Of a stretch of 20,677 nt of DNA, positions 4,058 through 15,977 are shown one piece after another (positions within the stretch are counted from its first letter, which is position 1; each line of letters opens with the position of its first letter). Made by a program: the position numbers and the translations under genes. The DNA comes from a virus, in IMG/VR virus record IMGVR_UViG_3300048504_000413, positions 1-20,677 of that record. One strand, written 5' to 3'. Below the pieces are notes generated by a model that made no database searches, had not been told where the DNA came from, and saw nothing but the letters and a program-made list of their open reading frames with translations.

Positions 4058-7000
4058 TTAGTCACGTGCAGATGCTACACCCTTTGAGACTTTCTTTCCA
4101 TCCATATTTACAGAAATTCCACCCCGTTTCATCAAAGAAATTAGTTCAGATAATTTTGTTACAACTTCTCTGTTACTTCCACTTGTTTGTGGTTGATCCG
4201 ATGAATCAGATGCTTTTTGAGTAATCTTGGCAATTTCTTCAACGAATACGGTTTGACCACTAACATGAATTGTATCAAATCCAGAAAGTGATGATTCTGT
4301 ATCAGTTGGTTCATTGGTTGTAAATTTATCTATTAATGATTCAAAGTTAGGAGTTAAATTAGATGCAAATTCTGCGATTCGTGTGAAAATACTTGTTGGT
4401 GTGGTTCCTGTATTTTGTATCGCATCGTTTAAAACTTTACTTTGTGTTGCACTTGAAGTATTTATGCCCGCAGTTTCATCTACCAACGCAAATGGATCAA
4501 ATGTAGGTGTTCCTGGTTTTATAGTTGGTAGAACACCAGGTGATCCAAAATCAACCGTGCCACTTGCGTCCTCTGCCCAATCAAATACATTGCTAGTTGG
4601 TAGATTCATCTTTGTTTCACCCAATGCTTTGAATTTGTCAGACACTTTTAGTTCCATTTCCTTTATTATTTTTTCATACATCCCAACTTGATTTACACTC
4701 ATACGAATTGAACCGAGTGTTTCAATATCCCAATCTGGATTATCTATATCTGTTTGCCTTGACTCCATTAAGGATCTCAAACCTTCAATCGTACTTAGAT
4801 TTATATCCGAATCTTTTATTTGCAATCTTTCCACAAATTTTGTGTAATCGGTATCAGTAAAAATAGGTTTCATTTTTGATACAGGATCAATATAATTATC
4901 CGCATTGATATCATATTTTGTGGGAGGTTCAACTTGAATTGGACCAACAGGAATATCTATACGTGGTACTCCACCTTGGTTTTGTTGTATTTGAACCTGC
5001 CTTCTTAAAGATTGCTTCATTTCTTCGGTCATTGGTGGTGACATCGTTTCACTGGTAGTTTGGTCATATTCAGGTTTTGCAATAACAGGATCTGCCATGA
5101 AAAAATTCTCTAATGCACTCGGAGGAGGTTCTGCTTTAACCATGAAGTTTTTCATTGTTCCCTCTATTACAGTTTCCGATCCATCTATAAAAGGATCAGA
5201 TGACGGTAGTGGTGAACTCTGAGTGCCTTTAACGCCTTGATTACCGACTGGTCCTTCTGCTCCGGGTATTGTAAGACCTTTTAACTCATTTATTTTATTT
5301 ACATTTAAATTATTTAGACTAGTTGCAACCAGTTGAATACTCGTTGCAAGTTTTTGCATTCCTGTGCTTATTTTCTCAAAACTTAATCCTGATAAAGCAT
5401 TAATCACACTCATCGTTGGTTTCAGTTTATTTAGTTGCATTAACTCTTCGATTTCTCCATCGTTAATATATCCAGCAAGTTGATCTAATCCGTATCCTAA
5501 ACTTTTTAATGCCTCCCCAGAACCTGCTAGTTTTGTGTAATCAAGTTCACTAAACGATTTAATTGTAGGAATTAACGATTGAGTTACACCAGGAAGTTCC
5601 GAAACGACACCAAAGTCAATATTTTCAAAATTATTAAAGAAACTCTCAATGCCCAAACCAAGTGATTCTAGTATGTCGTTTACATTTCCAGGTATCGTTT
5701 CTACTCCGTCAAGACCGTCTACCAACGAATCTATTGCAAGTCCCATATTTGGGAGTTCTCTCATCTTACTAAAAGACATTTTATTAATTGGAACGAAAAA
5801 GTCATTTAATGCAGTTGCTAATGTTTTGAGACCTCTTAAATCGGAAGTACTAAGTCGTGGTAGTGCGTTCGCAAGACCTCCAATAAATTTTGGCATACTA
5901 ATTGAAAGTGTTTCTATGTCCGTAATTACTTTTGCATTTATACCAGAAAACATTGCAAGTAGATCACCCATGCCAAGTGTTAATATTGCTATTTTCTCAC
6001 CAAATCCATCTGAAATGGTTGATACGAAATCTCCTAAGTTTAACTGACTTATTATTTCTAGTGATTTTGTATCAATTTGTATTTCCGACAATCTTACCAT
6101 AAATCCAATGATTTTCTCAATAGGATCAACTTCTTGTGTTTCTCCACCAAAAAATCCAGATATTGCATTACCAATACTACTTGCAGTTGATGCCATGCTT
6201 ACCTGAGCGAGACCTTGGCCAAGTGATTTAAATGCTTCACCCATATTAATCATAGAGGTAGCTGCTTTTTCAAGGACTGCATCCATTTTTGATAAACGAT
6301 CAAATGAATTTATGAGAAGGTCCATTTTGTCAGCTACTGATATAATTGAATCTGCTTCTTTTGCAAAATCTAAAAGTTTTTGTAACGGTGACTTATTGAG
6401 TTCGTCTGCGGTTTCTGTACCTGGTAAAATTGATGTAGCAGTATTAAGCAGACCACTTACGAACCCACCTCCTGCATCGGCAACTTTACCAACCGCCGAA
6501 CCAACTCCGAAGCTAGCCATTGCACCAGCAACTGCGGTAATTGCAGCGGAGACGGCAAATAATTTACCCGCATCAAGTTCACTTAATCGTGTAATATCAT
6601 CTACCATTGTAGTTATTGCTCCAGAAACTGCTCCTATGATGGTTTTAATTCCCCCTGCAATACTTGTAATTACTCCCGAAATCGCACCACCTATTGCAGT
6701 TATCGCACCCACGATTACCTCACCTAGTGCAGAAACAACATTTACAATAACTTCTCCAATTGACCCAATAACCTCTGCCATTCCCGAAAATACGTCTCGT
6801 ATAAGTTTTCCAAATGCTTCTATACCAGGAGCGGCAATTTTTAAAGCATATGCAAGTGGAATAAGTGATGCACCTAATGCAGCGATTGCAAATGCACCTG
6901 CTAAAATTGCAGCTGCCCCCACACCACTCATCATAATCGCACCAAGTTTAGCGGCCGCAATACCAAGCACTAATAAAGAACCTGCTATAACAAGTACACT

Positions 7001-9751
7001 TTCAAGTCCGACACCTTTCATCATATTTAAAGCAAATGCCAATGGAATTAACGATAATGAAAGAATTCCAATCGCAACGGCACCTGCTATCATCATAGGA
7101 CCACCTTTGCCAAGTAACATAGCAGCTCCTACCAATCCACCCAAAACTAATATACCAGGCCATGCTTTGTCCCAATTCACTTTTGCAAATTCTTGAAATG
7201 CTTTTGCAGATACGAATAAAGCACCTGCTATTATTGCAAGTGCAGCTGCAGCTGCTAATATATTCTGTGGTTTTATTCTGTTAATAAAGTTTGCAATGCT
7301 TCCAAGTATTCCACCTTTACCTCCAGCTGCACCACCACCCTTAAATAATTTAGAAGTAATTTTACCCGCGAGTCCTGATATTAATCCCATTGTTACTTTT
7401 AATCCAAGAAACAATCCACCAATTACAATTAAATTTTGTATTAGACTTTCACCAAAGAAACTTGCGAAAAACCCACCAACTTCCAATACAGCTTCACCAA
7501 TTCCCATTATAGCAGTACCCACACCAATCATTGTATCTTTTAACTCTTCTCCCTGTGGTGTAAGTTTCCCATTTTCACTTACAAGATCTCCTGTTATGTC
7601 TTTTATTTTTCCAATTACTGTTTCTATTGCAGGTAAAAGTGCCTTTGCCACAGGTACAAGTGCCATTTTTACATCTGTCCAAGATGCTTGTAACTTTGTA
7701 ACCAACGCATTCATTGACTCTTGTCGTTGGTTATCCTTTTCCATTTGCACAAGTTCTTTTATAATTTCATCATTACTTTTTTGTTTCGTTTTAAGTGCTT
7801 CTGCTTCTAGTTTATTTCTTCTTTCTACTATTTTTCGTGCTTCATCGTTTCCTCGTAGTGCAGCGTCTTCAAGCATTTTTCTTTGAGCAGCTGTTTTTTC
7901 CATATTTTGAATTGTACCTAATTCAACTCCAAGTAAATTCACTAGTTTTTCTTTTTGGAAATAATTCATACTCTCAGTACCACCCAAGGATTGAACTATT
8001 CGTAATTGTTCTTCTGCAAGTTCTTTTGTTTTTCCTTGAAATGCAAGAGAACGGGCTTGGTTCATATTTATATGCTGACCAAACATAACACTTGCTTCCA
8101 TTTCGGATGTAACACTTGATTCAAAATCCAACATAGAAGCAGCCGAACTAGCAATTGAATCCATAGATGTTCCTAGTTTACGTGCTTCTAATGCTCCTTT
8201 TGCTAATGCTTTTGCCGAACCACCTATAAACTTCATTACATCTTCACCGGCATTTGCTATATCGTCCATCACAGTTGAAAATGCAACTCCATGTGCATCT
8301 GCCATTTTTTGTGTATTTAACAAAGTATTTCCTATCTCGCTTTGACTTAACATTCCGAGTTTCATTAAACTATTCATTGCACCTGCAATAGATTCCGCTG
8401 CGACACCAGTTGCAAGTGATAATAACGAAACAAATTTTACTTGCTCTTCTGTTACATAGTTCATCGATGAAAACTCAGCAGTCAATGCACTTGTACTTTT
8501 TAATACATCTTCTGCATTTAAGCCTAGACCTCTAAATTGATTTTCCATACTTACAGACATATCTGTTAACCTAGAAGCACTTTCTGCCGTAGCACCTATT
8601 TGAAATCTAAAATCACGTGCAACATTTTCCAAACGAGTCATTTCATTAAATGCTCCTTTTATCAATACTACAAAACCAGTTATTGCAGCTCCTACCAAAA
8701 CTAAAGGATTCAATAATGTACCTATTATTTTTTTACCGATTCCAGCAATCGTTCCACCGAGCATTTTAAAGTTTTTTGCAAGTGCTTGTGGGAAACTCAT
8801 TCCTTTTACTATTTCTCCATTCTCGTTCTCAACATCTTTCATGTCGTTCATCATTGAATCTGTAAAAGATTGCCATAAATTTTTACTTTCAGAAACTGCT
8901 TCTGATATAGGACCACTCATCATTCCTTTTAAAAGTCCACCAACAACTGGAACTCTTTCTACGAAACTCAACATTCCATCACCCATTGCATCAAATGAAT
9001 TCATCAACGCATCATTTAATGGACCAAACTTTGAAACATACTTATCTAAACCAATTCCAAGTTCATTAATTTTACCTTGTTGCTGATTTAAAATATCTAC
9101 TTGCGTTTTTGACAGATCTATTTCATCACGATACATTTTACGTCTATGTTGAATCAACTCGTTCATATCAGATGATGAAGCAGATTGTTGTTTCAACATT
9201 TCTAAGTATCCATCACTTATACCTTGCAAAGCAGTTTGTTGTGATTTAATGGCATCTAAATTTGTTTCTTGCTTAATTAATGTAATATTAGATTGATTTA
9301 TTTTTTCAGTTAACTCTTCGTACTTTTCCGATCCTGACGGAACTGTTGCTCTTAGGTTTTCTAACTGCACTATTTTTTGTTGTTGCTCTGCAACTGCACT
9401 AAGTGTATCAGATTCAAGTTGTTTACTTGAACTTATGCGAGACTGAATTTCATCCTGCATTTTTACTACTTCTGAATTCAACTCTGTGGTATCCGTGATA
9501 CCATTTAATTTTACATTGTAATCAGTAAGAGTTTCAGAGATAGTCTCATAACCCAATTTAATCGCAGACAATTTACCAGACATCTTAGCAAGTTTGTCTT
9601 CTCCTGTTATTTCTATATTAGCTGCTGAATTTGCTTCTATAAAATTTTCACGAACTTGTTTAGTCAGATCAGTAACTTCAGACATAGGTCCTGATGCAAG
9701 TTCACTCATCGCACCTTGGATATTTTTTGTTATGTCTATTAGATCCTCCAC
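4058..9751 (-). CDS. Tail tape measure protein
   Basis: Protein of 1897 residues starting with GTG at 9751, chosen because AAAGG lies 8 bases upstream and the next residues (EDLIDI) open a long helical region. Residues 1-300 are charged and coiled-coil-like. Hydrophobic segments occur near 344-365, 766-791, 830-853, 864-977 and 994-1054; the last blocks are rich in Gly, Ala and Ile. A near repeat is visible: AGAVAIGILSLSLIPLAFAL (about 888) and AGAFAIAALGASLIPLAYAL (about 950). Residues about 1496-1510 contain five Gly-X-Y triplets. The end (ISVNMDGKKVSKGVA) is typical of tape measure C-termini. Such proteins fill the tail lumen, set tail length and are ejected with the DNA. It is three times the length of T4 gp29 (590 aa). 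It lies directly upstream of the hub-like gene, as expected. Confidence 0.93.
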   Translation of the reverse strand: MEDLIDITKNIQGAMSELASGPMSEVTDLTKQVRENFIEANSAANIEITGEDKLAKMSGKLSAIKLGYETISETLTDYNVKLNGITDTTELNSEVVKMQDEIQSRISSSKQLESDTLSAVAEQQQKIVQLENLRATVPSGSEKYEELTEKINQSNITLIKQETNLDAIKSQQTALQGISDGYLEMLKQQSASSSDMNELIQHRRKMYRDEIDLSKTQVDILNQQQGKINELGIGLDKYVSKFGPLNDALMNSFDAMGDGMLSFVERVPVVGGLLKGMMSGPISEAVSESKNLWQSFTDSMMNDMKDVENENGEIVKGMSFPQALAKNFKMLGGTIAGIGKKIIGTLLNPLVLVGAAITGFVVLIKGAFNEMTRLENVARDFRFQIGATAESASRLTDMSVSMENQFRGLGLNAEDVLKSTSALTAEFSSMNYVTEEQVKFVSLLSLATGVAAESIAGAMNSLMKLGMLSQSEIGNTLLNTQKMADAHGVAFSTVMDDIANAGEDVMKFIGGSAKALAKGALEARKLGTSMDSIASSAASMLDFESSVTSEMEASVMFGQHINMNQARSLAFQGKTKELAEEQLRIVQSLGGTESMNYFQKEKLVNLLGVELGTIQNMEKTAAQRKMLEDAALRGNDEARKIVERRNKLEAEALKTKQKSNDEIIKELVQMEKDNQRQESMNALVTKLQASWTDVKMALVPVAKALLPAIETVIGKIKDITGDLVSENGKLTPQGEELKDTMIGVGTAIMGIGEAVLEVGGFFASFFGESLIQNLIVIGGLFLGLKVTMGLISGLAGKITSKLFKGGGAAGGKGGILGSIANFINRIKPQNILAAAAALAIIAGALFVSAKAFQEFAKVNWDKAWPGILVLGGLVGAAMLLGKGGPMMIAGAVAIGILSLSLIPLAFALNMMKGVGLESVLVIAGSLLVLGIAAAKLGAIMMSGVGAAAILAGAFAIAALGASLIPLAYALKIAAPGIEAFGKLIRDVFSGMAEVIGSIGEVIVNVVSALGEVIVGAITAIGGAISGVITSIAGGIKTIIGAVSGAITTMVDDITRLSELDAGKLFAVSAAITAVAGAMASFGVGSAVGKVADAGGGFVSGLLNTATSILPGTETADELNKSPLQKLLDFAKEADSIISVADKMDLLINSFDRLSKMDAVLEKAATSMINMGEAFKSLGQGLAQVSMASTASSIGNAISGFFGGETQEVDPIEKIIGFMVRLSEIQIDTKSLEIISQLNLGDFVSTISDGFGEKIAILTLGMGDLLAMFSGINAKVITDIETLSISMPKFIGGLANALPRLSTSDLRGLKTLATALNDFFVPINKMSFSKMRELPNMGLAIDSLVDGLDGVETIPGNVNDILESLGLGIESFFNNFENIDFGVVSELPGVTQSLIPTIKSFSELDYTKLAGSGEALKSLGYGLDQLAGYINDGEIEELMQLNKLKPTMSVINALSGLSFEKISTGMQKLATSIQLVATSLNNLNVNKINELKGLTIPGAEGPVGNQGVKGTQSSPLPSSDPFIDGSETVIEGTMKNFMVKAEPPPSALENFFMADPVIAKPEYDQTTSETMSPPMTEEMKQSLRRQVQIQQNQGGVPRIDIPVGPIQVEPPTKYDINADNYIDPVSKMKPIFTDTDYTKFVERLQIKDSDINLSTIEGLRSLMESRQTDIDNPDWDIETLGSIRMSVNQVGMYEKIIKEMELKVSDKFKALGETKMNLPTSNVFDWAEDASGTVDFGSPGVLPTIKPGTPTFDPFALVDETAGINTSSATQSKVLNDAIQNTGTTPTSIFTRIAEFASNLTPNFESLIDKFTTNEPTDTESSLSGFDTIHVSGQTVFVEEIAKITQKASDSSDQPQTSGSNREVVTKLSELISLMKRGGISVNMDGKKVSKGVASARD

Positions 9752-9770: not shown

Positions 9771-10010
9771 TTAAATTCTTGGAAGTTTATCTAAATCAGT
9801 TACACCATATATATCTTTTAGTTTTTTGCGAAATTCGTTTGTACCCTTTACATAATCTTCAAGAGCATCTTTAAATTTTGGATCTTTAGCAGCTAACTGC
9901 ATTAGTTTTTTGGATTTTTTTCCAAAAATCCATTTTACAATACCCCCTATAAACTCGTTTAATTGCCCTTCTGTTAGAGTTTTTTTGATTTTTAAATTAT
10001 TGTTTTTCAT
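9771..10010 (-). CDS. Small basic protein of unknown function between chaperone and tape measure genes
   Basis: Protein of 79 residues with ATG at 10010 and a good ribosome site (AAAGGA, 9 bases upstream). The next gene, the tape measure, starts 19 bases after its stop, so the two are probably co-translated. The N-terminus is KKTLTEGQLNEFIGGIVKWI; residues about 18-32 would form a short amphipathic or membrane-seeking helix followed by a lysine cluster (GKKSKK). The rest is charged helix ending in DLDKLPRI. I do not recognise a family. Its position fits a small tail-assembly factor or a partner of the tape measure, but the sequence does not prove either. The start signal and position support a real gene. 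Confidence 0.75.
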   Translation of the reverse strand: MKNNNLKIKKTLTEGQLNEFIGGIVKWIFGKKSKKLMQLAAKDPKFKDALEDYVKGTNEFRKKLKDIYGVTDLDKLPRI

Positions 10011-10079: not shown

Positions 10080-10334
10080 CTATCTAAAAGAAGATTTTGG
10101 TCTTGGTGGATTTGACCTAGATGATGATTTTGCTTTATTTTGCTGAGTCTTGATTTGCTCTGACTCTTTAGTTTTTACTTCAAGCAATTTTTTTGCATAA
10201 AACCTTCGTAGATAAATTGGAAGGTTATATGCAATTTGCTGATTAAATGCACCTTCACTGTAATAGCAGAGATTAAAAATCTCCTCATGTAATTGAATTT
10301 TATACTCCTGCGGAAGGGTAAAAAAAGTCGACCC
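10080..10334 (-). CDS. Frameshifted C-terminal extension of the gp26-like / tail assembly chaperone gene
   Basis: This open frame lies +1 (or -2) relative to the gene ending at 10300. It is bounded upstream by an in-frame TAG at 10335-10337 and ends with TAG at 10080-10082. It has no ATG, GTG or TTG at its head. From the T-run onward it encodes TLPQEYKIQLHEEIFNLCYY, then residues including NLPIYLRRFYAKKLLEV, then a basic Ser/Pro/Arg-rich tail. Acidic HEEIF and aromatic LPIYLRRFY patterns look like a folded, selected protein rather than a shadow frame, and resemble C-terminal parts of T4-type hub-chaperone proteins. The simplest reading is that ribosomes slipping on TTTTTTT (10320-10326) make a fusion of about 377 residues. 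A single-base homopolymer error would give the same picture. Initiation at an ATT preceded by AGGAG is a weaker option. Confidence 0.85.
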   Translation of the reverse strand, partial: GSTFFTLPQEYKIQLHEEIFNLCYYSEGAFNQQIAYNLPIYLRRFYAKKLLEVKTKESEQIKTQQNKAKSSSRSNPPRPKSSFR

Positions 10335-11211
10335 CTAATGGGATCGTCATCCTTTCTTCATATCCAGTGTCTTCCGACTCGAAGTTAAAAGTCATATCTA
10401 AATCAGGTGTAGTTTCTTTTATGTGTTCACGGAATGCTAAACTATCACGTGCAAGTAAACTTTTATCAACAAAACTTTTAATGTTTGCTCTGTCATCATT
10501 TCCATCAATTGCCTTGATGATATATTTTAATCGTGTTGTTACTTCGGAAGTTTCGTTTTTGTTTTTTGTAAACTTCTTAAGACCTTTCAACTCTGCATCA
10601 ATTGCTTGTTCATCTGCGTGAGTGAGAAGTTTCCAATGAATTCTTTTTCCACTATGTGGTAATGTAAACTCAAAAATATTATCTCCACGTGTATATGAGT
10701 CAAAATCAAATTCTTTTGCATTTAACTTAGTCAAATCGATTGTATCTTCAACATCGTCACCCGTAGATGAATCTTTGAATTTTATTTTATAGTCTTTTCC
10801 GTATGCAAGTACTCTTGCTGAAATGAATATTGCATTTTTATCACCGACTAAAATGTCATCAAGTTTCACACCAGGAGTAACAATAAGTTGTTCAAGCAGT
10901 TTATCCAAAACAACTCCCTTTTTGATTAAGTTTTGACTTGTTAAAATATCTTCTTCCTTTGCAGTCATGTATTTAATGTCAACTTTACCGGATGCGAGTG
11001 GATTGTCGGGAGAATAAAACCACCCTTTACTCGGAAGTTCAACAACTTCACTTGGATACTCAATCTTTTGCACAGCATCAGTTGGTTGTGTAAAATTACT
11101 ACTACTCTGTGTATTGGTAGTAGTTGCCGATTTTGTAGTTTCTTTTGAACTTTCAGAAGACATAGCCTGTCTTACTTCATCTGGTATGTTAATTTGTTCT
11201 TCGTTTTCCAT
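10300..11211 (-). CDS. gp26-like baseplate hub assembly / tail assembly chaperone protein, zero-frame product
   Basis: Protein of 303 residues with ATG at 11211 and AAAAGG 9 bases upstream. The first 45 residues are Ser/Thr-rich and probably disordered. The folded part begins at about residue 50 with YPSEVVELPSKGWFY, followed by KYMTAKEEDILTSQNLIKKG and LLEQLIVTPGVKLDDI. This matches my memory of the T4 baseplate protein family that includes gp26, and resembles chaperones that bind the tape measure. The zero frame stops at 10300 with FFYPSAGV, just after a TTTTTTT run that probably lets some ribosomes enter the downstream 84-codon frame. The position between the tail tube and tape measure genes is the classical place for a tail assembly chaperone pair. 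The family assignment is from pattern memory; the chaperone role is inferred. Confidence 0.75.
   Translation of the reverse strand: MENEEQINIPDEVRQAMSSESSKETTKSATTTNTQSSSNFTQPTDAVQKIEYPSEVVELPSKGWFYSPDNPLASGKVDIKYMTAKEEDILTSQNLIKKGVVLDKLLEQLIVTPGVKLDDILVGDKNAIFISARVLAYGKDYKIKFKDSSTGDDVEDTIDLTKLNAKEFDFDSYTRGDNIFEFTLPHSGKRIHWKLLTHADEQAIDAELKGLKKFTKNKNETSEVTTRLKYIIKAIDGNDDRANIKSFVDKSLLARDSLAFREHIKETTPDLDMTFNFESEDTGYEERMTIPLGVDFFYPSAGV
10320..10326 (-). promoter_or_regulatory. Candidate programmed frameshift site (TTTTTTT)
   Basis: On the coding strand the zero frame reads GAC TTT TTT TAC, then stops 18 bases later. The overlap in which a shift could join the two frames runs only from 10334 to 10303, and this seven-T run is the only obvious slippery sequence in it. 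A shift of +1 or -2 reaches the downstream frame; -1 does not. A -2 shift is known for the tail assembly genes of phage Mu, so this direction has precedent. Confidence 0.65.
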
Positions 11212-11305: not shown

Positions 11306-11647
11306 TTAAATATCCGCAAGAGCAAAACTTAGTATTTTCTTGTGATCTTTATAACTGAAAAACTCACTGTCCTTTTTACCCTTCCAAGTCTTGTTTGCAG
11401 TTACACCAAGTTTCATGTCATTAAAAACTATTTTTTTACCACTACCAGTTTGAAACACCATTCTTCCTACACTATCATCAATATCATAATTTCGGAGAAA
11501 TTTCCCTCCTTTTACTTGTTGAATTAAGAATTTGGCAAGTTTTGCATATGCACCACTTAAACCTTCTAGTTGCAGTTCACTTTGAGTATCTTGTTTTATC
11601 TCTTCAAAGATATCAAGTATTTGATTTTTAAGTTTATCAGATTTCAT
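11306..11647 (-). CDS. Hypothetical protein, 113 aa, downstream of the tail tube gene
   Basis: ATG at 11647 lies immediately after AAAGA, a weak ribosome site too close to be ideal. The protein begins with a charged helix (KSDKLKNQILDIFEEIKQD), followed by GLSGAYAKLAKFLIQQVKGG and a mixed beta-like half containing DDSVGRMVFQTGSGKKIVF and GKKDSEFFSYKDHKKILSF. No signal peptide or membrane segment is seen. It is separated from the tail tube gene by a strong terminator, so it probably starts a new transcript that continues into the gp26-like gene. I do not recognise the family. Its place in the tail cluster suggests a tail or assembly role, but nothing in the sequence shows this directly. Confidence 0.7.
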   Translation of the reverse strand: MKSDKLKNQILDIFEEIKQDTQSELQLEGLSGAYAKLAKFLIQQVKGGKFLRNYDIDDSVGRMVFQTGSGKKIVFNDMKLGVTANKTWKGKKDSEFFSYKDHKKILSFALADI

Positions 11648-11726: not shown

Positions 11727-12218
11727 TTAGTATTGAAGAATTGCGTAGTCGTATGCAATCGTTAAGTTTACATTCAATGGATCACCCGTTGCCCAATCCA
11801 ATGTTCCGAAGTCAACTGCGGTACAGAATGCACCTTTGATTGTCCACTCTTCAACTTTGTCACCGACAGGTCCTAAAAGATTGATTGTTAAATCTTTCTT
11901 GTAGAAGTCAGCGTAACCATTTCGTCCTGTAACTGATTCATGGGAGAGACGAATCCATTCCATTGCAGCCTGAGATGCACTTGGTACTACTGGATCGTAA
12001 AGTGTCATTGTGATGTCTTGCCATTCAGCCTTACCACCACGGAGTTTTCTTTTGATATTGATGTGGTCAATTGTAACCGGGTCAATATTAAGATTTGGAC
12101 GGGTAACTCCTTTGATAAGATATGCAGGAAGTCCATCCATATACATGATAAATCTATTTGCGGTCTTTGGTTCAAAGGCCGTGAAAAACATTTCGTTTGT
12201 TTCAATTACGTCTGCCAT
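11727..12218 (-). CDS. 19: Tail tube protein, gp19-like
   Basis: Protein of 163 residues, the same length as T4 gp19. ATG at 12218 is preceded by GGAG with 7 bases of spacing. The N-terminal part FEPKTANRFIMYMDGLPAYL, the segment RGGKAEWQDITMTLYDPVVP and the C-terminal DWATGDPLNVNLTIAYDYAI are typical of contractile-phage tube proteins (T4 gp19 / phage tail tube family). Hexamers of this protein stack around the tape measure to form the inner tube through which DNA passes. The gene lies downstream of sheath and membrane-protein genes, has a long leader of about 110 bases with a sheath-like upstream element, and is followed by its own terminator, in keeping with a product needed in many copies. 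Confidence 0.95.
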   Translation of the reverse strand: MADVIETNEMFFTAFEPKTANRFIMYMDGLPAYLIKGVTRPNLNIDPVTIDHINIKRKLRGGKAEWQDITMTLYDPVVPSASQAAMEWIRLSHESVTGRNGYADFYKKDLTINLLGPVGDKVEEWTIKGAFCTAVDFGTLDWATGDPLNVNLTIAYDYAILQY

Positions 12219-13100: not shown

Positions 13101-15977
13101 TCAACTGAATGATGCTCCAGTTGCTTGTACATTGAAGTCAAGGATGATATACTCAACTGCACGTGCAGGTTGAAGGAAGATTTGTCCATAAAGGATATTT
13201 CTATCGATCAAGTCTGGTGTGTTGTTTGATTCATCCATAACCACGTTAAACGCATACAAACCTTGTCTTTGTTGTACTGCTTCCAAATAAGGATTTACAA
13301 TACCTAAGAAGCGATTGCGTGTAGCGGCAACATTTTGTTCAAATAACAAGTACCTTGATGTACTTGCGATAAACTTCTTCAATGAGATAAGCAAACGACG
13401 TACATTGATCCTATCCAAGGCAGATGCTCTGCGTTGTAAGGTTTTTTGACCGAAAGCAACAATTCCTTGACCAGGAAAAGCGGCAATTGGATTAACCTTA
13501 CCTTCGTACAATGTATCTCGTTCTGCAAATGTCAATCTATCCATAACGGAGATTGCTTGTTCAAGACCACCACGATTTAAACCGGCAGGTGCAAACCATT
13601 CAGCAGCTGCTTTATCATTAGAAGCAAATACCGCGGGCATCAATGCACTTGGTGGATAAACTTGCAATGCGTTTGTTGCTGGATCAATAATCTTAACCCA
13701 AGGGTAATAAGTTGCAGCGTAATTTGAATCAATCGTTGATGCTTGTGTTACTGCTTCATCTACCAATCCAGGTTGACCATTTGCTTGAACACAATCTAAA
13801 ATATAGAATGCATCTTCACGTGTTTCACATAGATCAACACCCATGTTTACAACACTTCTGTGTAAGTCTAAACTAAGTCCAGGTGTTACGAGCAAGTTAA
13901 TATCAAACTCGTCTTGATTACTAAGTGCTTTGAATGCTCTTTCGTATGCTTGTGTACCGGCAGACATTCTTCCAGAACAATCCATACCTTGAACATTCCT
14001 TGCAGATATATCTTCACCCAACAATACTGGCAATACAGGAGAGTCTCCATCTTCACCACCTTGGAAACCTACGATAAATCGTCTGTGCTTACGTGCTTTT
14101 GTTTCAGCATTTCTACTTGTTGGATTTGCTGAAATAATTTCAAACTCTTCAACATTAACTTCGTCATCAACTTGATAAAAGATTTTACCAGGTTCGTCCA
14201 TGTAGAATCCTTCACCCGCGGTTCCAGCATCATCAGGAATTGGAGCGCATAATTCTGTGAAATCTTTACTCCAATAAGGAAGACTCTCATTTGCAGGTAA
14301 TGTATAATTAGTTTGATTTGTTGGTGACCACCCGGATGGTTGAAGTAATCCATCAGGACTATCATCATTGAATACCGCACCACAGAAATATCTTCCGTTA
14401 ATTCTGCTATATTGAGATGCGTATGAATAACGAGGTGTTGGAAGATTAACTTTGTCACTTCCGTCTGTCATACCAACGGTTGAAGAGTAAGCATGGTGAC
14501 CATAAGGCATACATTGCGTTGGTGCAGTACTATCTTTTGGCATTTCAATGCGAATCCAATTACTTCCGTTTATGTAATCACCCTTTTCATGCACTTTTCC
14601 TCTTAAGTCAATAAAAGTGAATCTATCACCAATAACTCTTGGTAAATAACGAGGAGACATTGGATCAAGAGTAACATCACGGAAATCTTCAATTACATCT
14701 TGAGTTTTATCATTGTCATTAAATCCACGAACTAGTACACTAAATGTTCCATACTGCGTTCCATCTAATGTACCGGGTGTTTTGATGTTATAGAAACCAA
14801 CTTTAATTTCACGATTTGCTGATTGACCATAACTGCGTGTGTGAATTCTGAATAACTCATAACGAGCATTACTAATTTCTTGAGACACAATCCAAGGTGT
14901 AGAAGCAGGACGACAAGCATGAGTTCCTCTTGCATTTCCATCATATGCTTCGTATCTGTAATCTGTGTCGATAGCATTTTCGTATCCATCTCCGTCTGCA
15001 TCTTCGTTTTGTGATGTAAAATCAAGAAATCCAGATGAAGTCTCAATTTCTACATTATATTCAGCACCATGTTGTACTATCAATTCATTTACTAAATTTT
15101 GAGAACTTTCAAAGTATGAAGTAAAATATGCAGGTTTAACATTCTTTTGAGGTGCTCTTCCGAATATGTTGTGTAAACTATTTGGAGAAGCAGGATCAAT
15201 CGTAAAATTATATTCACCCAAAATTTCAGGTTTACCATTGTTATTTCCAGAAGCAACTTCTTGAGTATTGTATTCTTGCCTAAGAACCAATGTACCTGTT
15301 CTTTCGTCTACTTCTTCAGAAATAAGTTCCGAATTCAAGTTAGGAGTTCCGTCTGCGTTTGTTTCAGCATAAACTGCCGGTGTGAATTTTAAAGGAAGTG
15401 GTTGATCAATTTCAAGTCCGTCTCTGTCTTTCAACTTTGATCCAGCAAATCCGATACTTGTTTCAGATGGTGATGCAAGATCTTTCTTTAAAATAAGTTC
15501 ACCAGGAATCCATTGCTCTCTTCCGTCTTCGTTCAAAATTGGTTCACCTGAAACAGTGTCAGTTAATACTACAAGCTGTCTTTCTTGTAATGTATTAGCA
15601 AGAACACCGATAACTACACTATCAGGTACATCACCTTCAGCAACTGTATCAGATGTAATACTACCAGAAACATAATTTGCTCTAACAAGAAGTGCGTTTT
15701 CACACATCCATCCTTCTAAAGCACCTGTTCTAACAATAGTAACAACTCCTTGGTTAAGTAAATATTCACGAGCAGTAAATGGTTGGTAATAAATACCTTG
15801 TGGTGTACCAAATAATGCTTCGAGTTGGTTTACGTCTCTTATAATAGTAGGGGAATATGCGGGACCTTTGGTGAATGGACCGATAACGGCCCCACCAATG
15901 TCACCTATTCCCTGTATAAGAAAAGACGAATCGATTTCGTTTGTAAAAACTGCTGGACTAACTGTGCGCTCTGCCAT
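13101..15977 (-). CDS. 18: Tail sheath protein, gp18-like, unusually large
   Basis: Protein of 958 residues, ATG at 15977 with a strong ribosome site (AAAGGAG). N-terminal VSPAVFTNEIDSS, GPFTKGPAYSPTII and ALFGTP are typical of contractile sheath proteins. Around residues 640-720 the conserved core is seen (ARNVQGMDCSGRMS, FDINLLVTPGLSLDLH). The C-terminal domain (RINVRRLLISLKKFIASTSR, LFEQN, RNRFLGIVNPYLE, YIILDFNVQA) is the part that interlocks neighbouring subunits. T4 gp18 has 659 residues; the extra length lies mostly in residues about 130-630, likely surface domains. That insertion contains DADGDGYENAIDTD (residues 326-339), an acidic loop like calcium-binding thrombospondin type 3 repeats. 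Contraction of the sheath drives the tube through the host envelope. The gene has its own terminator and upstream element. Confidence 0.96.
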   Translation of the reverse strand: MAERTVSPAVFTNEIDSSFLIQGIGDIGGAVIGPFTKGPAYSPTIIRDVNQLEALFGTPQGIYYQPFTAREYLLNQGVVTIVRTGALEGWMCENALLVRANYVSGSITSDTVAEGDVPDSVVIGVLANTLQERQLVVLTDTVSGEPILNEDGREQWIPGELILKKDLASPSETSIGFAGSKLKDRDGLEIDQPLPLKFTPAVYAETNADGTPNLNSELISEEVDERTGTLVLRQEYNTQEVASGNNNGKPEILGEYNFTIDPASPNSLHNIFGRAPQKNVKPAYFTSYFESSQNLVNELIVQHGAEYNVEIETSSGFLDFTSQNEDADGDGYENAIDTDYRYEAYDGNARGTHACRPASTPWIVSQEISNARYELFRIHTRSYGQSANREIKVGFYNIKTPGTLDGTQYGTFSVLVRGFNDNDKTQDVIEDFRDVTLDPMSPRYLPRVIGDRFTFIDLRGKVHEKGDYINGSNWIRIEMPKDSTAPTQCMPYGHHAYSSTVGMTDGSDKVNLPTPRYSYASQYSRINGRYFCGAVFNDDSPDGLLQPSGWSPTNQTNYTLPANESLPYWSKDFTELCAPIPDDAGTAGEGFYMDEPGKIFYQVDDEVNVEEFEIISANPTSRNAETKARKHRRFIVGFQGGEDGDSPVLPVLLGEDISARNVQGMDCSGRMSAGTQAYERAFKALSNQDEFDINLLVTPGLSLDLHRSVVNMGVDLCETREDAFYILDCVQANGQPGLVDEAVTQASTIDSNYAATYYPWVKIIDPATNALQVYPPSALMPAVFASNDKAAAEWFAPAGLNRGGLEQAISVMDRLTFAERDTLYEGKVNPIAAFPGQGIVAFGQKTLQRRASALDRINVRRLLISLKKFIASTSRYLLFEQNVAATRNRFLGIVNPYLEAVQQRQGLYAFNVVMDESNNTPDLIDRNILYGQIFLQPARAVEYIILDFNVQATGASFS

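Follow-up and report, generated by a model that had tools for sequence, protein, structure and literature searches.

Probable +1 programmed frameshifting in a putative tail assembly chaperone gene from a distant relative of phage T4

Results

Organization of the locus

The window analyzed here is a virus record of 20.7 kb (20,677 nucleotides), probably a fragment, and its tail genes lie on the minus strand in the order tail sheath, 233-aa ORF, tail tube, small ORF, gp26-like gene, startless frame, small ORF and 1897-aa tape measure candidate (Table 1). The gp26-like gene and the frame after it thus lie between tail tube and tape measure candidate, as originally described, with two small ORFs in between. 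A similar gene order is seen in Flavobacterium phage immuto, Microcystis phage Mel-JY01 and Bacillus phage SP-15, and the ORF annotated as tape measure in immuto and SP-15 is the counterpart of the candidate here. No convincing family match was found for the small ORFs flanking the cassette (9771-10010, 79 aa; 11306-11647, 113 aa). The tail sheath (958 aa, 13101-15977) has tblastn matches beyond the nearest phages mainly in its C-terminal third.

The second frame is open from after the TAG at 10337-10335 to the stop at 10082-10080, comprises 84 codons and stands in the +1 phase relative to the gp26-like gene. ATG, GTG and TTG are absent from its first 49 codons, the earliest being at codon 50. 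The two frames overlap by 35 nt (10334-10300), with TTTTTTT inside the overlap at 10326-10320; in the gp26 frame the region reads GGG GTC GAC TTT TTT TAC CCT TCC GCA GGA GTA TAA. The preliminary description had reported a gp26-like gene stopping at 10300, followed by a protein-like 84-codon frame in the +1/-2 phase that runs to 10080 and begins after the TAG with no start codon at its head. The ORFs, tblastn and a profile of the extension bear out the first part, and the sequence confirms the second, so that a start of its own at the head of the frame, which would have spoken against a frameshift, is absent in the window. The T run was also correctly placed, whereas the overlap is longer than the 30 bases or so first given.

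Table 1. Features of the cassette and its neighbors (positions in the window)
Feature	Position	Strand	Description	Evidence
gp26-like gene (short product, putative TAC-N)	10300..11211	(-)	303 aa, ends ...VDFFYPSAGV (stop)	ORF, PF12322, phrog_150, AlphaFold
+1-frame extension (putative TAC-C domain)	10080..10334	(-)		startless head, homologues in +1 phase
Putative slip site TTT TTT T(AC), 0-frame codons	10320..10326	(-)		TTT-Y in 172/172 +1-phase contexts
Upstream hairpin CGATCCC-ATTA-GGGGTCG	10329..10346	(-)	3' foot 2 nt before T run	
Shine-Dalgarno-like element GAAAGGA	10350..10356	(-)	5' of hairpin; weak in this member	
TAG closing +1 frame upstream	10335..10337	(-)	5' limit of shift window	sequence
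Tape measure candidate	4058..9751	(-)	1897 aa, downstream of cassette	ORF; counterpart ORF annotated
Tail tube protein (gp19-like)	11727..12218	(-)	upstream of cassette	PF06841 E=9e-8; phrog_4542 E=4e-24

The second frame is conserved in the +1 phase

The similarity of the second frame to other phages is far beyond chance, with tblastn matches in Mel-JY01 (47% identity, E=3e-14) and in phage LR756508 (E=1e-8), in both of which the match follows the gp26 match in the same +1 phase. Both frames were recovered by tblastn in Mel-JY01, immuto and LR756508, always in this phase, and the same +1 arrangement is present in Streptococcus phage GXN1, Bacillus phage SP-15 and Listeria phage LIS04. Rhodothermus phage RM378 has an annotated 58-aa gene in the +1 frame that is open from the T run, although its extension was not detected by the domain profile. 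Protein scans with the SP-15 and RM378 sequences gave matches only in those phages themselves. A frameshift is marked in none of the annotated regions of the relatives examined; LR756508 carries no annotation.

Scans of viral contigs and genome contigs yielded a set of 204 loci with a gp26 match. A profile of the extension matches most of these roughly 200 related loci in the +1 phase. When counted over the 176 unique contexts that have a detectable extension and a located Phe codon pair, 172 carry the downstream domain in the +1 phase, among them far-diverged phages of Microcystis, Flavobacterium, Bacillus (SP-15), Listeria (LIS04) and Streptococcus (GXN1). In the closest relatives (L008-L011, gp26 65-74% identical), the T run and the phase are both kept, the outcome that the proposed alignment with relatives was meant to reveal, and a single uninterrupted gene was seen in none of the relatives examined. 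The +1 frame is devoid of any start codon in L045 and has only deep starts in L027, L049 and L069. One locus, L007 (LR756511), is ambiguous and could be read either as a T_TTT_TTC -1 site or as a TAATG restart.

An invariant TTT-Y marks the putative slip site

In all 172 contexts with the +1 phase, TTT is followed by T or C within a Phe-Phe or Phe-Leu codon pair. This TTT-Y is found in 172/172 +1-phase contexts vs 0/4 contexts in another phase (P=2.6e-8, Fisher's exact test, a value that overstates independence because the four exceptions represent two switch events by the tree). Among 181 unique sites tabulated, 105 read TTT TTT TGG CCT, 27 TTT TTT TAC CCT, 13 TTT CTT TGG CCT and 12 TTC TTT TGG CCT, and the others are rarer forms. 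The nearest +1-frame stops are only 2 nt upstream of the slip codons, while stops in the 0 frame follow these codons at a distance of 9-21 nt. The +1 product continues FFGL, FFTLP or similar in nearly all members, and the conservation of the frame begins at the slip site. The slipping codon could be the first or the second of the pair in most members.

A hairpin and a Shine-Dalgarno-like element precede the site

The hairpin of the window has a folding energy of -11.3 kcal/mol (z=-2.8 vs synonymous recodings that keep the codon usage of the gene concerned, the null used for the folding tests). Across the family, the interval -24..-1 folds more strongly than expected, the mean z being -1.28 for 62 clusters (60% identity, P=3e-10) and -1.17 for 30 clusters (50% identity). 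Six control windows that lie farther upstream in these genes, from -96 to -216, have z near 0, and z is at most -0.28 in the windows at -48 and -72. The family hairpin ends 1-3 nt before the slip codons and is covarying: the paired arms are CGATCCC/GGGGTCG in the window, CTACCCC/GGGGTAG in L010, TCTGCCG/CGGCAGA in L133, GACGGTC/GACCGTC in L027 and CGCATCC/GGATGCG in L003, so that sequences differ between clades, with two-sided changes at several pairs. A weaker test, counting stems of at least 5 bp, also gave an excess (37/62 vs 24.9 expected, P=0.0015).

Pairing to the anti-Shine-Dalgarno sequence is likewise in excess at -36..-18 in the family (-8.0 vs -4.6 kcal/mol for the synonymous null, P about 1e-11), with a value of -5.8 for the window itself. 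No excess was found from -48 upstream, nor a significant one near the slip codon (-18..-1, P=0.075). At the cut-offs used, 33 of the 62 clusters have both elements, 16 the Shine-Dalgarno-like element only, 4 the hairpin only and 9 neither. A constant effective spacing after removal of the hairpin was considered and rejected, for leaving out the hairpin does not make the distance to the slip codons more uniform (sd 5.9 vs 5.7 for linear spacing). Downstream RNA structure was likewise set aside as a candidate: its mean z is -0.5 to -0.9, and the stronger value overlaps the dual-coded stretch, which makes the test unfair.

To our knowledge, a conserved upstream hairpin of this type is otherwise known only from reporter tests. 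On 70S ribosomes, a hairpin that refolds at the E site, adjoining the slip site, promotes +1 frameshifting and reduces -1 frameshifting (PMC6321510). This effect fits a +1 family with the hairpin and other arrangements mostly without it: nine of ten loci in other arrangements lack a clear hairpin excess, L189 being the exception.

Loci with the extension in another arrangement

In four unique contexts (L110, L115, L166 and L189), the extension lies in the -1 phase and TTT-Y is missing. In L110 and L115, an ATG directly behind the gp26 stop gives the extension a start of its own; it also carries an additional N-terminal segment, and the slip site is lost. In L166 and L189, at about 2690-2720, TTC TTC stands in place of the +1 site, together with A_AAT_TTC, a canonical -1 heptamer. 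The gp26 tree places L110/L115 inside the immuto-like +1 group (97% SH-aLRT) and L166/L189 inside the main +1 group (98% SH-aLRT for its branch with L003). Given these nested positions, the four exceptions most likely reflect two switch events: L110/L115 went over to separate genes, and L166/L189 to a canonical -1 heptamer, an apparent switch of recoding direction.

A further four loci (L214, L216, L217 and L218) are the Kyanoviridae S-RIM50 and ACG-2014f, Vibrio AIR2 and Stenotrophomonas Moby. Their gp26 ends in T_TTT_TTC just before the stop. From this heptamer onwards, a short gp51 frame that the annotations treat as a gene of its own is open in the -1 phase, which makes a -1 frameshift probable there.

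The gp26-like product and its extension

The gp26-like product matches PF12322 (E=2e-8, 34.5 bits vs a cut-off of 24.5) and phrog_150, a baseplate hub family (E=2e-10). T4 gp26 and the longer gp51 both belong to PF12322. On phrog_150, T4 gp51 covers columns 13-280 and T4 gp26 stops at 235; the fusion of the two frames in the window reaches column 267 vs 232 for the 0-frame product, for a gain of only about 3 bits. The SP-15 fusion brings no gain, its match also ending at column 235. Profile-profile comparison of the extension with the C-terminus of T4 gp51 gave E=0.011 at low probability, and single-sequence profile comparison with T4 gp51 and gp26 was insignificant. An AlphaFold model of the short form has a pLDDT of 85.5. 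Its two best PDB matches after realignment, YqbN (Z 5.3) and the HK97 tail chaperone (Z 4.7), are weak; Foldseek returned no significant match for the gp26-like model and nothing for the extension.

T4 gp26 and gp51 have reportedly been called the tail chaperones of T4 (Vladimirov et al. 2022), and on this account a chaperone function is itself not new. PMC12846349 cites the identification of tail chaperones in T4-like phages. From the reach on phrog_150, the gene position and this cited identification, we infer a chaperone function in which the short form is TAC-N and the long form TAC-NC, the latter apparently the counterpart of T4 gp51.

Direction of the shift and alternative explanations

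A +1 and a -2 shift lead into the same downstream frame, and the preliminary description had left both open. Both are conceivable for the window, where the seven T's permit re-pairing either way. The two differ in the predicted junction peptide, VDFFTLPQEYK for +1 and VDFFFTLPQEYK for -2. In the first set of loci, the T7 run is present in 68/81 unique contexts and -2 re-pairing of the Phe tRNA is possible in 70/81, but +1 re-pairing (TTT to TTY) is possible in 81/81. The sites TTT CTT TGG, TTC TTT TGG, TTC TTT CGT and TTT CTA TTC bar -2 and all permit +1, and the upstream hairpin is a published stimulator of +1 shifting (PMC6321510). Because +1 re-pairing fits every context and -2 only 70, the predicted direction is +1, and a -2 ribosomal shift of the kind used by phage Mu is very improbable. 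Slippage of RNA polymerase on the T run, yielding mRNAs that lack one T or have two extra, could also join the frames, and seven or more T's are indeed present in 143/181 listed unique sites. In the remaining 38 the T run is broken up or shorter, a misfit shared by transcriptional and -2 slippage, but all except the four re-arranged ones keep TTT-Y, and at nearly all of these TTT-Y sites the domain is in the +1 phase; the hairpin and Shine-Dalgarno-like signals moreover point to the ribosome. We consider transcriptional slippage highly unlikely.

Translation of the second frame as a separate gene, by re-initiation or from an unusual start codon, has precedents in L110 and L115 with their ATG and in T4, where initiation of gene 25 uses a Shine-Dalgarno sequence plus hairpin located in the last part of gene 26 (PMC3014915). 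Yet in L110 and L115 the phase is different and TTT-Y is gone, no start stands at the head of the frame in the window or in many relatives, and the conservation of the +1 frame (FFGL/FFTLP) starts at the slip site itself, so there is little probability left for a separate gene. A sequencing error or a broken gene might be suspected in a homopolymer run, which is error-prone, on a 20.7 kb record that is probably a fragment. The same phase and site recur in about 170 unique contexts, isolate genomes included, which refutes this explanation for practical purposes. Programmed frameshifting in a tail chaperone gene of a T4-related phage, as first proposed, is therefore the best-supported reading.

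Discussion

Two frames in a conserved +1 phase, an obligatory TTT-Y and hairpin and Shine-Dalgarno-like signals are all present in this family. From them we infer ribosomal slippage, its efficiency and the action of the stimulators, and the locus very probably encodes a tail assembly chaperone made by +1 programmed frameshifting in a distant T4-like phage. Most ribosomes would stop at 10300 and release the 303-aa short form, while some would slip one base forward with the Phe tRNA on the TTT codons at 10326-10321. The P-site Phe tRNA would re-pair from TTT to TTT one base 3', and ACC CTT CCG CAG... would then be read, giving an extension from T-L-P-Q-E-Y and a 376-aa long form. The +1 shift is probably driven by the hairpin, whose foot lies 2 nt from the slip codons and which would refold once the ribosome has passed, perhaps jointly with the Shine-Dalgarno-like element farther 5'. 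Both forms are expected to cover the tape measure protein and to bring in subunits of the tail tube, like lambda G and GT.

Comparison with known systems

The arrangement resembles a cassette of the G/GT type in that the second frame overlaps the first, has no start of its own and is conserved in phase, and in that the overlap contains a slippery site that is also conserved. According to a review (PMC5009743), conservation of the G-T shift is wide, with T4 as the exception. Such shifts are mostly -1, whereas here the shift would be +1 on TTT-Y with an upstream hairpin. T4 gp26 and gp51 are of the same family (PF12322/phrog_150), the short form being like gp26 and the long form apparently like gp51. 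In T4, however, the two are encoded by two divergently transcribed genes, and here by a single overlapping cassette; in the window the long form has no complete gene of its own. For the tail chaperones of T4-like phages, the title of Vladimirov et al. 2022 names a mechanism other than frameshifting. The end of T4 gene 26 (L088) has the codons TTC TTT (EFFELL), near the published Shine-Dalgarno hairpin of the gene 26-25 junction. That hairpin is a parallel to the one described here, which by analogy with gene 25 initiation at the junction may shorten the path from the Shine-Dalgarno-like element to the slip codon.

The gp26 genes of Kyanoviridae, Schizotequatrovirus and Menderavirus are the same gene with the same terminal Phe-Phe codons and a short gp51 frame directly after. 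They differ in having T_TTT_TTC, a second frame in the -1 phase and no upstream hairpin excess, and this -1 arrangement has possibly been described already. For the +1 system, the TTT-Y site and the upstream hairpin in a gp26-like gene, no report was found in an incomplete collection of open-access literature. The annotation of gp26/gp51 in these genomes, including the isolates immuto, Mel-JY01, SP-15, LIS04, GXN1 and RM378, is probably wrong, with the extension either left out or entered as a hypothetical gene that is truncated or stands apart.

Shifts of +1 are likewise known in other phage tail genes, being very likely in Halorubrum myovirus HSTV-2 and occurring at CCC (CCC_UGA) in the major tail protein gene of Listeria phages PSA, A118 and A500 (PMC5009743); the Listeria shifts are not in a gene of the gp26 family. 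The RF2 gene (prfB) is similar in that a P-site tRNA slips +1 onto UUU, at CUU_UGA, with the help of an internal Shine-Dalgarno-like element, and the TTT CTT T variants of the present family contain CTT T, in only 13 unique +1 sites. The A-site codon is TAC in the window and mostly TGG or TAC in the family, instead of the in-frame stop of prfB. The Shine-Dalgarno sequence of RF2 adjoins the slip codon, whereas here the Shine-Dalgarno-like element lies much farther 5', with its excess at -36..-18 and often a hairpin between. The locus family provides many natural variants of a +1 signal, and at one codon pair the recoding direction appears to have been reversed. A broader proposal, to which we give about even weight, is that a composite +1 signal (Shine-Dalgarno element, refolding hairpin and TTT TTT/CTT T) extends across a T4-like lineage, and that the Phe codons at the gp26 end have been switched between +1, -1, separate genes and the T4 gene duplication with both chaperone forms kept. 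Among phages with frameshifted tail chaperones, T4 counts as the textbook exception; the present comparison suggests that its distant relatives do frameshift, in the rarer +1 direction.
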